From contig NZ_CP114054.1 in assembly GCF_026967575.1 (NCBI RefSeq), forward strand, positions 2,604,001-2,668,000: a DNA stretch of 64,000 bases. The letters are read 5' to 3'. The translations under genes were made by a program, and so were the position numbers. The notes under the pieces were generated by a model. The model was not told where the DNA came from, did not search any database, and worked only from the letters and a program-made list of their open reading frames with translations. Below are positions 13,365 through 18,044 of this stretch, one piece after another. Numbering within the stretch: the stretch's first letter is position 1; the number at the start of each line of letters is the position of its first letter. The stretch is from Aurantiacibacter sp. MUD11 (GTDB lineage: Bacteria; Pseudomonadota; Alphaproteobacteria; Sphingomonadales; Sphingomonadaceae).

Positions 13365-14630
13365 GTGGACCATTTCCAGCTCAGGAACGGTGAATTGCAC
13401 GCCGAGGACGTGCCCCTGTCGCGCATCGCGGAAGCGGTGGGCACGCCCGTCTATGTCTATTCGCGCGCGACCTTCGAGCGCCATGCCCGCGTCTTTCGCA
13501 AGGCGCTGAGCGGGCTGGAACGCCCGCCGCACATCGCCTTTGCCGTGAAGGCGAATCCCAACCTGGCCGTGCTGAGCCTGCTCAGCCGCGAAGGGCTGGG
13601 GGCCGACGTCGTCTCGGGCGGCGAGATGGCGCGGGCACTGGCTGCAGGCATGCCGGCCAGCGACATCGTCTTCTCGGGCGTCGGCAAGACGCACAAGGAA
13701 CTCGGCGACGCGCTCGATGCGGGCATCGGCCAGTTCAACATCGAATCGGGCGAGGAAGGCCGCGAGCTGGCTGAGATCGCGGCCGCCAAGGGTAAGGTTG
13801 CCCAGTGCGCGCTGCGGGTCAACCCCGATGTCGACGCTGGTACCCATGACAAGATCTCCACCGGGAAGGCGGACAACAAGTTCGGCGTGCCCATCGGCCA
13901 TGCCCCGGCGCTGTTCGCGGAGCTGTCGCAGAAGCCCGGCCTGAACCTGCGCGGCCTTGCCGTGCATATCGGCAGCCAGCTGTCCGACCTCGCCCCGCTG
14001 GAAGCCGCCTTCGCCAAGCTGGGCGCGATGATGACTCAGCTGCGCGCCGAGGGGCACACGATCACCCACATGGACCTCGGGGGCGGCCTGGGCGTGCCTT
14101 ACAAGGCGGGCGAACAACTGCCGTCGCCGGCCGACTATGGCGCCATGGTGGCCCGCGCCACCAAGGGCTGGGACGTCACACTGATGTTCGAACCGGGCCG
14201 AGTCATCGCGGGCAATGCCGGCGTGTTGCTGACCCGCGTGATCCGCGTGAAGCGCGGGCTGAAGCACCCCTTCGTCATCGTCGATGCGGCGATGAACGAC
14301 CTGGCCCGGCCTGCGCTGTATGGTGCCTGGCACGATTTCGACGCAGTTAAGCCCAGCGGGGAAAAAATGGTCGCCAACATCGTCGGCCCGATCTGCGAAA
14401 CCGGCGATACCTTCGCCATGGACCGCGAGATCGATACCCTCATTGCCGGCGACCTTGCCGTGTTCCGCACCGCCGGCGCCTATGGCGCGACCATGGCCTC
14501 CTCCTACAACTCGCGCGGGTTCGTGGCCGAAGTGATGGTCGACGGATCGGACTTCGCCGTGGTGGCAGATCGCATCCCGCCGGGCGACATCGCCGATGCC
14601 GAACGGGTGCCGGACTTCCTCAAGGACTGA
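13365..14630 (+). CDS. lysA: Diaminopimelate decarboxylase
   Basis: A 421-residue PLP enzyme producing lysine from meso-diaminopimelate. It starts at GTG 13365, directly after the lptM stop. The alanine-racemase-like barrel holds the PLP Lys62 (FAVKANPN). The glycine loop is DLGGGLGVPY near 232, and the C-terminal beta domain carries the active-site Cys in GPICETGD near 344. The stop overlaps the next ATG (TGATG). Confidence 0.96.
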   Translation: MDHFQLRNGELHAEDVPLSRIAEAVGTPVYVYSRATFERHARVFRKALSGLERPPHIAFAVKANPNLAVLSLLSREGLGADVVSGGEMARALAAGMPASDIVFSGVGKTHKELGDALDAGIGQFNIESGEEGRELAEIAAAKGKVAQCALRVNPDVDAGTHDKISTGKADNKFGVPIGHAPALFAELSQKPGLNLRGLAVHIGSQLSDLAPLEAAFAKLGAMMTQLRAEGHTITHMDLGGGLGVPYKAGEQLPSPADYGAMVARATKGWDVTLMFEPGRVIAGNAGVLLTRVIRVKRGLKHPFVIVDAAMNDLARPALYGAWHDFDAVKPSGEKMVANIVGPICETGDTFAMDREIDTLIAGDLAVFRTAGAYGATMASSYNSRGFVAEVMVDGSDFAVVADRIPPGDIADAERVPDFLKD

Positions 14631-15409
14631 TGCGCTCGCTGCCGCTCTTCCATCGCATTGCCGGACAGCCGGTGATCGTGCTGGGCGAGGGCGACATGGC
14701 CGAGCCCAAGCGCCGGCTGGTGGAACGCGCCGGGGGGCGCGTGGTCAGCGACATGCAGGAAGGCATCGACGAGGGCGCGCGGCTGGCCTTCATCGCCCAT
14801 GACGATGCCAAGATGTGCGAGGGCGATGCGATTCGCCTGCGCTGCGCCGGGCTGCTGGTGAATGTCGTCGACCGGCCCGACCTGTGCGATTTTACCACCC
14901 CCAGCCTGCTGGAGCGGGACCCGGTGCTGATCGCCGTGGGCACCAGCGGTGCCTCTGCCGGCCTCGCCAAGCAGTTGCGCCTGCGGCTGGAGCAGCTGCT
15001 GCCGGCAGACCTTGGCGCGCTGGCGGAGCGGCTTTCCGCCATGCGCGAGGCGATCAAGGTGCGTTTCCCCGCCATGGCCGAGCGCCGCCGCGCGCTCGAC
15101 GAGGCGTTGGGCGAGGGCGGGCCGCTCAACGTGCTGGCTGAAGGCAGCGCCGGACGAGTCGAGGCATGGATCGACGAGTCCGATACCCCGCCGGCCAGCG
15201 GCATTCACCGCTTCACGATTACCAGCGACGACCCCGAAGAGCTGACCATCAGGCAGGCGCGCCTGCTGGGCAGCGCCGATGCCGTGATTGCCGACGCTGC
15301 GATCCCGGCGACCATCCTCGACCGGGCGCGGGCCGATGCCGCGCGGCTCACCCTGCCGCACGATGGTGACATGCCGAAAGGGCTCGTAGTCGTGCTCGAA
15401 CGCGGCTGA
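14630..15409 (+). CDS. Siroheme synthase (precorrin-2 dehydrogenase / ferrochelatase, Met8/CysG-B type)
   Basis: A 259-residue protein like the N-terminal half of CysG. The NAD-binding region begins VIVLGEGDMAEPKRR near residue 16. VNVVDRPDLCDFTTPSLLERDPVL near 85 contains the aspartate used for dehydrogenation and chelation in the family. No uroporphyrinogen methyltransferase domain is fused. It overlaps lysA by one base. Siroheme serves sulfite or nitrite reductase, but neither is in the window. Confidence 0.88.
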   Translation: MRSLPLFHRIAGQPVIVLGEGDMAEPKRRLVERAGGRVVSDMQEGIDEGARLAFIAHDDAKMCEGDAIRLRCAGLLVNVVDRPDLCDFTTPSLLERDPVLIAVGTSGASAGLAKQLRLRLEQLLPADLGALAERLSAMREAIKVRFPAMAERRRALDEALGEGGPLNVLAEGSAGRVEAWIDESDTPPASGIHRFTITSDDPEELTIRQARLLGSADAVIADAAIPATILDRARADAARLTLPHDGDMPKGLVVVLERG

Positions 15410-15461
15410 GAACGGTCACATTACAGACATTTAACTTAAATCCGCGCCTCCCGCGCCGCAC

Positions 15462-15504
15462 TCTCCCGGACAGCAGCGACACGGTGTTGCTCCACTTCGG
15501 GAGA
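15462..15504 (+). promoter_or_regulatory. Candidate leader hairpin masking the RBS of the 51-residue peptide gene
   Basis: TCTCCCG (15462-15468) is perfectly complementary to CGGGAGA (15498-15504), and the latter is the ribosome-binding site of the peptide gene at 15510. Inside, AGCA (15472-15475) can pair with TGCT (15488-15491) and ACA with TGT. Translation could be switched by opening this structure. Upstream, 15418-15441 is AT-rich with TTAAAT, a possible -10, but no convincing -35 was found. Confidence 0.4.
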
Positions 15505-15509
15505 AAACA

Positions 15510-15665
15510 ATGAAACTGCCCAAAATCGACCTGGCCAGCCTGCCGGACCTCGATACTCTCACCGGGTTCTTCGGTTCCATGCGGACGCCGGGACATGATG
15601 ACACCATCATCGTGATCGCGACCATCGTGTACGAGAGCAACCCGCCCAGCGGCGGGCTCATCTGA
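15510..15665 (+). CDS. 51-residue peptide, possible precursor of a modified peptide
   Basis: A small open reading frame with a good ribosome-binding site (CGGGAGA, 5 bases before ATG). The peptide starts MKLPKIDLASLPDLDTLTG, an acidic and Leu-rich segment resembling a leader. A short Gly/His/Asp linker (FFGSMRTPGHDD) follows, then a very hydrophobic Ile/Val/Thr stretch (TIIVIATIVYE), and it ends SNPPSGGLI. It has no Cys. It is followed after 15 bases by a HEAT-like protein and then, overlapping, by a cupin-like protein. The layout (small peptide plus two unassigned proteins, one with a metal-site-like His cluster) suggests a peptide-tailoring or signalling unit. I do not recognise a named family. 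Confidence 0.7.
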   Translation: MKLPKIDLASLPDLDTLTGFFGSMRTPGHDDTIIVIATIVYESNPPSGGLI

Positions 15666-15680
15666 GCGGGGCCGCGCGCG

Positions 15681-16637
15681 ATGCAGGTCCACCCCGACAT
15701 CGCGGCGTTGCGGAGCGATCGCGCTCCGCAACGCCAGGCCCAGACCGCCATCCTTGCCGCGCGCGATGCGTGGGCCGCGGAAGAGGGCGCGTCCGAACTG
15801 CTGGCGGAGCTGGATGCCTATGGCACCGGCGCCCCGCTGGAGGCCTGCTCGACACTGGAAGCCGTGTTCACCGGACAGGGCGAGGCCGAACGGCTGATGG
15901 GCCTGCTCTCGAAGCATTACTGCAATGCCATTGCCGCCAACCCGATCGGCCACCCGCCGTTTCGCAACGGGTTCGACGGGATGGCCAGCTCCATCCTGCT
16001 GGCCCGGGCGGGCCGTGCCCAGCTGATGCTGCAGGCGCGCGAGCCGGGAGAGATGGCCAATCCCGGTTACATCTTCTCCGATGCCTCCCGCTTCGATGCC
16101 GTGCTGGCCGGGGAAGCCGAGGCACGCATCGTGCGGATCGCTTCCCGGCAAGAGCAAGCCGCCGAATTCGTCGAAGAGCGCGTGCACCTGCGGCCCGGCC
16201 ATCGCATCGCCTTCGACCTTGCTACTGAAGCCCTGATGATCGACCGGGTCACCCGCCGCGTGGTCATCCTGCGGCTGATGCGCACTGCCGCGGACCCGCA
16301 GCCCGGGCGCGAATATTGCGCCGAGACGGGGTGCCTGCTGCACCAGAGCGCAGGCTGCATTGCCACCAGCCGGCAGGAGGCGATCATCGCCTTGCTCGGC
16401 CGGATGGGGCGCGACGATGCCGCGCCGGCCATCGCCCAAGTCGCCATGGCCGACGGCGACAACTCGCTGCGCTGGCAAGCCATGCGTGAAGCGCTGGCGC
16501 TGGACACCGCCACGGGCTTCGCTGCGCTCTATACGGTGGCGCGCCGCAGCGAGGACCCGCTGGCCGGGCAGGCCGGCGCCCTGCGCGCGCAGCTGCTCGA
16601 AACCTATCCCCAACTGGCCCAAGTGGAGGCTGCCTGA
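15681..16637 (+). CDS. HEAT-like repeat protein of the peptide operon, function unknown
   Basis: A 318-residue soluble protein. Residues about 230-312 are regular helical pairs of HEAT type (QEAIIALLGRMGRDDAAPAI, then WQAMREALALD). The first two thirds match no family I can name. They include a conserved-looking patch with His91 (GHPPFRNGFDG) and a Cys cluster near 213-226 (YCAETGCLLHQSAGC). It starts 15 bases after the peptide gene, and its stop overlaps the next start (TGATG), so all three are probably co-transcribed. A scaffold or peptide-binding role is inference. Confidence 0.72.
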   Translation: MQVHPDIAALRSDRAPQRQAQTAILAARDAWAAEEGASELLAELDAYGTGAPLEACSTLEAVFTGQGEAERLMGLLSKHYCNAIAANPIGHPPFRNGFDGMASSILLARAGRAQLMLQAREPGEMANPGYIFSDASRFDAVLAGEAEARIVRIASRQEQAAEFVEERVHLRPGHRIAFDLATEALMIDRVTRRVVILRLMRTAADPQPGREYCAETGCLLHQSAGCIATSRQEAIIALLGRMGRDDAAPAIAQVAMADGDNSLRWQAMREALALDTATGFAALYTVARRSEDPLAGQAGALRAQLLETYPQLAQVEAA

Positions 16638-17536
16638 TGCCCCGCGTCATCGACCATCGCGACGAGACTTCCTGCGAACTTGGCGACTGCCTTGCCGCTC
16701 TCGAGGCGGAAGGATTCCGACCCTACGAGGAAGAAAGCCTGCTGCACGCGGCCGCCTGGTTGCGGCGACTGGGGAACAACCGGCAATTCCTGGGCGACAT
16801 CATGCTGGAGGAGCTGAAGCAGGGCGTGAAGGCCGCCGAAGAGGCGAGCAGCTATGGCCCGCAGGTGGTGATGCTGTGCGAGCTTGGCCGCGAATACTTC
16901 ATACGCGCCAATTTCTGGCCGAGCGCCGACGAGCACATGTTCCGGGCCAGCGGATCGTCCGCCTTCAGCTACGAACTGCCGCACGATCACAACTTCGATT
17001 TCCTGACCGTCGGCTATTTCGGCCCCGGCTATGCCAGCGACTATTATGAGTACGACTACGACAAGGTCGCTGGCGGGATCGGCGAGAGGGCGGGCTTGCG
17101 GTTCATCGAGCGCAGCACGCTCGATCCCGGCAAGTTGATGCATTACCGCGCTCACCGCGACGTGCATTCGCAACTGCCGCCGGAAAGCCTCTCCGTCTCG
17201 CTCAACATCATGCATGCAGGCGGGGCGCAGGGCTGGCTCGACCAGTACAAGTTCGACGTCGACAAGGACGAGATCAGCGGCGTGATCAGCCCGGGAGGGA
17301 GCGAGATATTCCTGCGCGTAGCCGTGGGGCTGGGGGGCGCAGAGGCGCGCGACCTGGCGCACAATTTCGCCGCCTCGCATCCCAGCGACCGGATGCGGCT
17401 GGTGGCGCTGGAGGCGCAGGCGGGTGTGCTCGACGAAGGGGGCCGCGACGATTTGTGGCGCAGGGCGGAAGGATCGGGCAGCAGGCTGGTGGAGATGGAG
17501 GCCACGCGGCGGCGGCGCGAACTGGCGCCCGCTTAG
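16637..17536 (+). CDS. Cupin-like putative metal oxygenase of the peptide operon
   Basis: A 299-residue protein. Residues about 112-230 look like a cupin barrel. PHDHNFDF (His116, His118) resembles cupin motif 1, and DPGKLMHYRAHRDVH (His169, His173, His177) resembles motif 2 with its PG turn. N190 and H193 follow in SLNIMH. Helical segments at about 233-262 (AEARDLAHNFAASHPSDRMRL) look HEAT-like. The His pattern suggests a mononuclear iron or other metal centre acting on the neighbouring peptide or on a small molecule, which is inference. It ends 10 bases from the convergent ruvX gene. Confidence 0.68.
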   Translation: MPRVIDHRDETSCELGDCLAALEAEGFRPYEEESLLHAAAWLRRLGNNRQFLGDIMLEELKQGVKAAEEASSYGPQVVMLCELGREYFIRANFWPSADEHMFRASGSSAFSYELPHDHNFDFLTVGYFGPGYASDYYEYDYDKVAGGIGERAGLRFIERSTLDPGKLMHYRAHRDVHSQLPPESLSVSLNIMHAGGAQGWLDQYKFDVDKDEISGVISPGGSEIFLRVAVGLGGAEARDLAHNFAASHPSDRMRLVALEAQAGVLDEGGRDDLWRRAEGSGSRLVEMEATRRRRELAPA

Positions 17537-17546
17537 ACGAATTGGC

Positions 17547-18044
17547 CTAGAGGATGCCGCCCGCAAGCCGGTCGATCGCGCCTTGCAGGATGACCGCAGC
17601 CGCATGACTGTCGATCCGCTCGGCGCGTTTCCCGCGGCTCATGTCCTGCGCGATCATGTCCCGCTCGGCGCTAGCGGTGGACCAGCGCTCGTCCCACAGC
17701 AGCACCGGCAGTCCGAGGCCGTTCTGCGCGGCGGCGAGATTGCGGGCGAAGGCGCGACTGGCCTGCGCGCGCGGCCCGGCGCTGCCATCCATGTTCAAGG
17801 GCAGGCCGATCACGATCCCGACGGCGCTGCGATCCTTGCAGATTGCCGCCAGCGCATCCTTGTCTCGGGTGAACTTGCCCTTGGGCAGGGTCTTGCCCGC
17901 CGTCGCGAAGCTCCATCCGGCATCGCACAGCGCCGTGCCGATGGTCTTGCTGCCGAGGTCCAGTCCCAGCAGCACGCCACCCTCGGGCAAGGCATCGCGG
18001 AAGACGCCGGCGTCTTCGGTTACGAGTGCTGCTGCTGGTGCCAT
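17547..18044 (-). CDS. ruvX: Holliday junction resolvase-like RuvX/YqgF
   Basis: A 165-residue RNase H-fold nuclease of the YqgF family, implicated in pre-16S rRNA 5'-end processing. The fold starts at LLGLDLGSKTIGTALCD (catalytic Asp near 29). VGIVIGLPLNMDGSAGPRA and LLWDERWSTASAE follow, with a late Asp-His in RIDSHAAAVIL. About 23 residues precede the usual start; an internal start is possible, but none has a better site. The gene overlaps the upstream DUF3089 gene by 25 bases. Confidence 0.88.
   Translation of the reverse strand: MAPAAALVTEDAGVFRDALPEGGVLLGLDLGSKTIGTALCDAGWSFATAGKTLPKGKFTRDKDALAAICKDRSAVGIVIGLPLNMDGSAGPRAQASRAFARNLAAAQNGLGLPVLLWDERWSTASAERDMIAQDMSRGKRAERIDSHAAAVILQGAIDRLAGGIL

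Follow-up and report, generated by a model that had tools for sequence, protein, structure and literature searches.

A conserved peptide, HEAT-like and cupin-like gene cassette as a candidate peptide-tailoring system

Does the small gene at the head of this locus encode a peptide that the products of the two genes behind it modify? In the stretch of 64,000 nucleotides analysed here (the window), three open reading frames follow one another on the plus strand: a precursor-like peptide gene of 51 amino acids (15510..15665), a gene for a HEAT-like protein of 318 amino acids (15681..16637), and one for a cupin-like enzyme candidate of 299 amino acids (16637..17536). A Shine–Dalgarno-like GGGAG, read in the sequence on the same strand (15499..15503), lies 6 bases upstream of the peptide's ATG. 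The peptide stop and the HEAT-like start are 15 bases apart, and the HEAT-like and cupin-like genes overlap by one base. The original prediction, which proposed that the cupin-like protein modifies the peptide, had described the same three genes, peptide length, gap and overlap, and these were all confirmed.

It had also placed none of the products in a named family, and the searches agree. None of the three reaches a family cut-off in Pfam or NCBIfam, and none was matched by PADLOC at E ≤ 0.1. For the HEAT-like protein there is no Pfam match at E ≤ 1, and its sole weak NCBIfam match is MntR (E 0.014, far under the cut-off). Neither the HEAT-like nor the cupin-like protein has a match at E ≤ 1 in a sequence search of the PDB. 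A phage or defence origin was considered and rejected, given the PADLOC result and PHROG matches that are weak (E 0.06–0.08). The scanned immediate neighbours of the cassette are, by Pfam, a siroheme-synthase-like protein and a DUF3089 protein. The former (14630–15409) has NAD-binding and CysG-dimerisation parts and is ordinary-looking; its gene is the cassette's left neighbour in relatives as well.

Conservation of the block, its site and its peptide

Of 7996 candidates scored against the cupin-like protein, 3876 are homologues at E ≤ 0.001. Counting the window's own genome, a cupin match was found in 34 of 99 genomes of its relatives by single-sequence search, and profile searches gave 143 of 396 genomes in the order, 5 of 385 in the class and 15 of 398 in the phylum. 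A search with an Alteromonas enzyme as the query returned 2960 homologues, which may share members with the 3876; the sources among the best 120 listed include Alteromonas, Pseudoalteromonas, Luteimonas, Lysobacter and Stenotrophomonas. At least 13 of the best 120 homologues listed for the window's enzyme bear the name "transposase" in the source databases (P0004, P0010, P0013, P0031 and others), and such names recur among the homologues of the Alteromonas query (P0200, P0202, P0217 and others).

Peptide, HEAT-like and cupin-like matches stand in this order in all 29 relatives first fetched, the window being the 30th locus, and in each of the 29 a peptide homologue lies just upstream of the HEAT gene by tblastn, with 45–86% identity. 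For the block count, the best 80 of 295 contig stretches encoding a relative were fetched; several of these loci are the same places as before, so the two counts are not independent. HEAT-like and cupin-like matches are present in 80 of 80, some of them partial (at contig ends in L027, L092 and L099), and the peptide is present in 79, the only exception being L099, whose contig begins within the HEAT gene. The conserved block that the original prediction expected was thus found together in 79 of the best 80 loci, and the loss of the peptide frame in relatives that keep both partners, which would have counted against it, was not seen. As a set, the three genes are conserved, and they are present or absent together. 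The stop of the HEAT gene and the start of the enzyme gene overlap by 13 bases in 59 of the 80 loci and by one base in 15. Several frames are split or interrupted, through decay or sequencing error: the HEAT gene runs over two frames in L002/L034, L022/L068 and probably L055, the enzyme frame of L080 is only partly open, and the enzyme genes of G1109, G910, G045 and G1096 each contain one in-frame stop.

The cassette also has a recurrent chromosomal site. Over the 80 loci, many with short flanks, the recurrent neighbour families are argH (46 loci), the ruvX/DUF3089 side (45), a siroheme-synthase-like gene (31) and a decarboxylase gene, here called lysA, with lepB, acpS and pdxJ-like genes farther out; these names are presumed from the sequences. 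No conserved accessory gene was found among the 26 largest neighbour clusters, which otherwise consist of the cassette itself, frame noise and families that are presumably housekeeping. Among same-genus genomes, 11 have no cupin match, and 9 of these were checked for an empty site, leaving aside the two least complete, G025 and G027. All 9 have ruvX and the siroheme-synthase-like gene separated by 15 to about 200 bases, with zero peptide, HEAT or cupin matches between them. Across 61 genomes, a strong peptide-profile match (E < 1e-10) occurs once per genome in 26, all of which carry the cupin gene. The cupin match extends to 27, and the sole genome among them that has no strong peptide match, G011, holds a cupin fragment only. 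At its locus (L209 3872–4319), the final portion of the cupin gene directly follows the first ten residues of the peptide; this junction is a deletion scar. The well-conserved version at one chromosomal site in the window's relatives suggests a standing cellular role rather than only a weapon.

The names in the database records would make the third protein a transposase and the block a mobile element, a reading to which we give practically no credence. No transposase family matches the window protein at E ≤ 1 in Pfam or NCBIfam or appears among the families listed for 70 members, the predicted fold is that of a thiol dioxygenase, and the same chromosomal neighbours recur in loci with enough flank, as they do at the empty sites.

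Selection acts on the peptide itself. The median dN/dS against the window is 0.11 for the peptide (25 usable of 26 pairs); the HEAT gene has 0.29 and the cupin gene 0.15, with 26 pairs for each. These ratios are rough because the median dS exceeds 1 and is near saturation. For pairs with dS of 0.1–1.5, the medians are 0.27, 0.31 and 0.17, respectively (290, 236 and 272 of 351 pairs). The amino-acid sequence of the peptide is under purifying selection, at a dS near saturation. By its linkage in 79 of 80 loci and its dN/dS, the small gene is a short ribosomal precursor-like gene tied to candidate tailoring genes. It is very improbable, in our estimate, that the frame instead serves as a regulatory leader (attenuator) for the two downstream genes. 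Its shortness and its place close upstream, at a median of 16 bases from the HEAT start over 79 loci, would suit that role, but the purifying selection on the amino-acid sequence argues against it, as does the stretch from 15380 to 17620, which contains no terminator-like site.

Read as a precursor, the peptide falls into two parts. The alignment of window-type peptides has 112 rows and 87 unique sequences, with P4, P12, G19 and G22 in 100% of the latter, D7 in 95%, D31 in 97% and Y41 in 95%, and with a variable linker and tail. The common pattern is M-x-L-P-K-I-D, L-P-D-L-D and T-G-x-F-G-S, then the linker, D-D, a V/I/M-rich run and an end in Y-[ED]. Residues 1–22 (15510..15575), with the four invariant positions, would form a leader-like part, and residues 30–51 (15597..15662), V/I-rich and placed with low pLDDT in the model described below, a core-like part. 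Cys is absent from the window peptide, and 8 of the 87 unique sequences have one.

Predicted folds of the two partner proteins

The AlphaFold2 (AF2) model of the cupin-like protein has a mean pLDDT of 90.2 and, by fold searches, a predicted thiol-dioxygenase cupin fold (residues 9–219, 16661..17293) followed by a HEAT-like tail (residues 221–296, 17297..17524). The original prediction would have fallen with a structure that is not a metal-binding cupin; the predicted model does show a cupin. Foldseek also lists JmjC protein hydroxylases for this model, e.g., MINA53 and NO66. In the tail, profile searches match HEAT-type repeat chains (best 2.2e-5, at residues 216–295), and 29 of 70 members of the enzyme family have a HEAT_2 match at E ≤ 1 (best 6.8e-5).

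The candidate metal ligands are three histidines. In the alignment of the cupin-like members, H116, H118 and H177 are invariant (70/70), with H116-D117-H118 at 16982..16990 and H177 at 17165..17167. The trio put forward originally was H116, H118 and H169; the first two are borne out, and H169, present in 20 of 70, was rejected as a ligand, the invariant third being H177. H116-D117-H118 and H177 align with the HDH and the motif-2 His of cysteine-dioxygenase-family proteins, an alignment that serves residue mapping only, since hhalign of the enzyme profile against eight members of that family gave an E-value of 0.12. The S-x-H-x-Y motif, which has its role in rat CDO as H155/Y157, is replaced: the position reads S186-x-S188-x-N190 in 70 of 70. 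With this motif changed and the peptide free of Cys, oxidation of a peptide thiol is unlikely, and we set it aside as disfavoured.

The second protein had been described as HEAT-like. This stands for its C-terminal region (residues 227–317, 16359..16631), which is helical in the AF2 model, and falls short for the rest: the protein is predicted to comprise helices, a cupin and a HEAT-like part, and its cupin-type region (residues about 30–225, 15768..16355) has no conserved metal histidines by fold searches and alignment. The HEAT assignment is also supported by an Alteromonas relative, which matches Pfam HEAT_2 (5.2e-9); for the window protein, Pfam gives no HEAT match. For the cupin region, thiol dioxygenases are the best VIA match, with other cupins within about 1 Z unit, and Foldseek puts seed globulins and auxin-binding protein first. 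It would be a guess to call this protein the enzyme's sister, because other cupins nearly tie with the thiol dioxygenases; a profile comparison of the two proteins gave a probability of 13%, a weak signal of paralogy. The winged-helix recognition fold is absent among the 50 matches listed for the HEAT model, which excludes nothing.

The HEAT-like protein may hold the peptide. A model of the peptide fused to it as a single chain has a mean pLDDT of 88.9. The block of peptide residues 1–10 has a pLDDT of 91 and residues 11–20 one of 81, and residues 26–56 of the fusion fall below 50, so peptide residues 26–51 are placed with no confidence. These confidence scores of a single-chain fusion make the HEAT-like protein the better candidate to hold the peptide's N-terminal half.

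Taken together, we think it somewhat more probable than otherwise that the locus is a compact RiPP-type cassette, in which a HEAT-like protein binds the leader and a cupin-like enzyme oxidises the C-terminal part of the peptide. The 51-residue peptide would be the precursor, with residues 1 to about 22 as the leader and about 30–51 as the part that is altered. In the heterodimer that we infer, the HEAT-like protein, a cupin and HEAT protein with no conserved metal histidines, would bind the leader in the docking that the model predicts. The cupin-like protein would work beside it with a three-histidine site of the iron type (H116, H118 and H177), the metal being presumed, and would oxidise the tethered C-terminal part to a product that is likewise putative. 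We lean towards oxidation of this part because of the predicted fold and the three histidines. The likeliest targets would be the beta-branched run, or Tyr41 or Asp31 adjoining it. Several findings speak against this reading: in the window's relatives the C-terminal part is well conserved, where a typical core would vary; most loci have no recognised export; the distant peptides give a mixed comparison; and sequence profiles by themselves connect neither the enzyme with cysteine dioxygenases nor the two proteins with each other.

Distant cassettes and rival roles for the peptide

A distant set of 33 locus entries, several of them duplicates, extends the comparison. Close to the enzyme start, 32 of them have the end of an open frame of at least 150 codons; in L172, it is the overlapping frame that the HEAT profile matches. 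The HEAT profile matches 24 of the 33 entries. By eye, a plausible Shine–Dalgarno-led peptide precedes the upstream gene in 22 of 27 distant loci, the exceptions being L158, L164, L167, L172 and L120. Strict automatic criteria (an ATG, a Shine–Dalgarno sequence, 34–60 amino acids and a hydrophobic 12-mer in the C-terminal part) were passed in 11 of 19 zones against a background of 10 in 439.6 kb-strand, or 0.015 expected per zone, a count that supports rather than proves the presence of peptides because the criteria were set after the inspection by eye.

When the window-type peptide profile was compared with 21 distant peptides, 8 matched at E < 1e-4 (five over most of their length, the others mainly over the first half). 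Another 5 matched at E < 0.05, and the remaining 8 had E > 0.1. The enzyme profile still matches cassettes whose peptide no longer resembles the window type. In these sequences, a clean pattern of leader kept and core changed is only partly seen, since some peptides keep both halves, some a leader-like start and some neither. Individual loci vary further. A Rhizomicrobium-like candidate peptide (L116 7676–7846, minus strand) has a Gly/Pro/Arg-rich stretch and no V/I-rich end. The peptides upstream of the HEAT gene in L165, L169 and L173 share DDN and then an L-x-x-CL-type ending with Cys, which sets this subgroup apart from the window type. On a plasmid of Vibrio sp. ED002 (L158 5189–6745), the HEAT and cupin genes are shorter and diverged, and a small annotated gene just 3' of the cupin gene has a Gly/Cys-rich stretch and is a possible precursor.

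Two distant cassettes are accompanied by exporters. On an Alteromonas stellipolaris plasmid, HlyD, ABC ATPase and MacB-type genes precede two candidate peptides and the HEAT and cupin genes, which are followed downstream by an ABC ATPase and an ABC-2 permease. In the Sphingomonadales genome G1147 (L161 4509–14957), two tandem cassettes with two different peptides lie on one strand, and downstream on that strand are an HlyD protein, an ABC ATPase, two FtsX-like permeases and an ABC exporter; here, the ATPase and permeases are presumed from sequence and place, without a Pfam call. When 99 loci were screened for transporters with ten proteins of L157 and L161 as queries, 2 matched, both of them the query sources; some of the loci have short flanks, and the screen covers only transporters of the query-like types. 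Beside the window's cassette, no exporter or protease was recognised among the scanned neighbours. The original statement that no transporter is adjacent does not extend to these two relatives.

The exporters could also be read differently. If the peptide were a membrane-active hydrophobic peptide that the two proteins neutralise or to which they confer immunity, the HlyD, MacB-type and ABC genes flanking the Alteromonas cassette would fit, as would the hydrophobic, often V/I-rich run in which most of the 21 distant peptides end. We regard this as improbable: PADLOC gave no match, the run in window-type peptides is short and bounded by DD and Y-[DE], and neutralisation would presumably need no invariant histidine set.

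A weightier alternative, though still an unlikely one, is that the peptide is a small subunit with a stabilising or regulatory role in a HEAT/cupin complex that really acts on a small molecule. In the window's relatives, conservation extends to both halves of the peptide, strong peptide matches come one per genome, 97 of 99 loci have no recognised exporter, and enzymes for small thiols are among the nearest folds. Against this, the distant peptides change far more than the enzyme, with 8 of 21 no longer matching the window-type profile, the C-terminal half is predicted to be disordered on the HEAT protein, two cassettes have exporters beside them, and the enzyme has lost the S-x-H-x-Y motif to another reading. 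What keeps this alternative alive is the core's conservation in close relatives, together with the scarcity of recognised export and the mixed peptide comparison.

Relation to known systems and significance

If the peptide is indeed tailored, the cassette resembles RiPP biosynthesis in having a short precursor-like gene directly upstream of a candidate tailoring pair, and in a peptide whose N-terminal half is conserved and whose C-terminal half is disordered in the model. The usual leader recogniser of RiPPs is a winged-helix (PqqD-type) element, whereas the candidate here is a protein of a metal-less cupin and HEAT. The window locus also differs in having no recognised protease or exporter; a dedicated one nearby is optional in RiPPs. 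Thiol dioxygenases (cysteine, 3-mercaptopropionate, mercaptosuccinate, plant cysteine oxidase and cysteamine) share the predicted cupin fold of the third protein. They differ from it in the S-x-H-x-Y motif, for which it has the S-x-S-x-N reading in all 70 members, and from the cassette in its Cys-free peptide, the extra HEAT tail and the HEAT/cupin partner.

Two other systems, described in PMC12257519, offer parallels. PbsQ, a cupin-like, JmjC-related hydroxylase of the pbs RiPP cluster that acts on ornithine, is likewise a cupin-fold protein of a RiPP pathway; PbsQ alters a ribosomal peptide, and the cassette enzyme is a candidate for doing so. The cassette enzyme differs from the JmjC-related PbsQ in its candidate ligands, H-x-H plus H, and in having thiol dioxygenases as its best fold matches. 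In MNIO (DUF692) systems, an iron-dependent oxidase and a partner protein stand next to a short precursor (PMC12257519), much as a candidate oxidase and a partner adjoin a short precursor-like gene here. The cassette enzyme has a predicted cupin fold, unlike MNIO, and DUF692 matches neither the window protein at E ≤ 1 nor appears among the families listed for the 70 members.

Among the literature matches listed, a scope with subscription papers mostly outside it, titles and the starts of abstracts contain no description of a HEAT/cupin peptide cassette. The cassette would be a variation within RiPP-like systems, and a new class within RiPPs if modification is confirmed; we do not file it as wholly new because PbsQ is already an example of a cupin in a RiPP pathway. 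Such a class would have a metal-less cupin, perhaps the enzyme's sister, as its leader binder and a thiol-dioxygenase fold with an altered second-sphere motif performing non-thiol oxidation on hydrophobic cores, with thousands of members hidden as "transposase" or "hypothetical protein". This is a tentative reading that we put at a little under even chances, given the near tie among cupins and the mixed result for the distant peptides.

Should it hold, the cassette would represent a widespread family of peptide-tailoring systems whose leader recogniser departs from the usual type, and a thiol-dioxygenase fold would have been re-used for another reaction. The name under which thousands of sequences of the enzyme family are filed is misleading. 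The cassette is small, at three genes, and the different peptides of its distant relatives are material for mapping its specificity.
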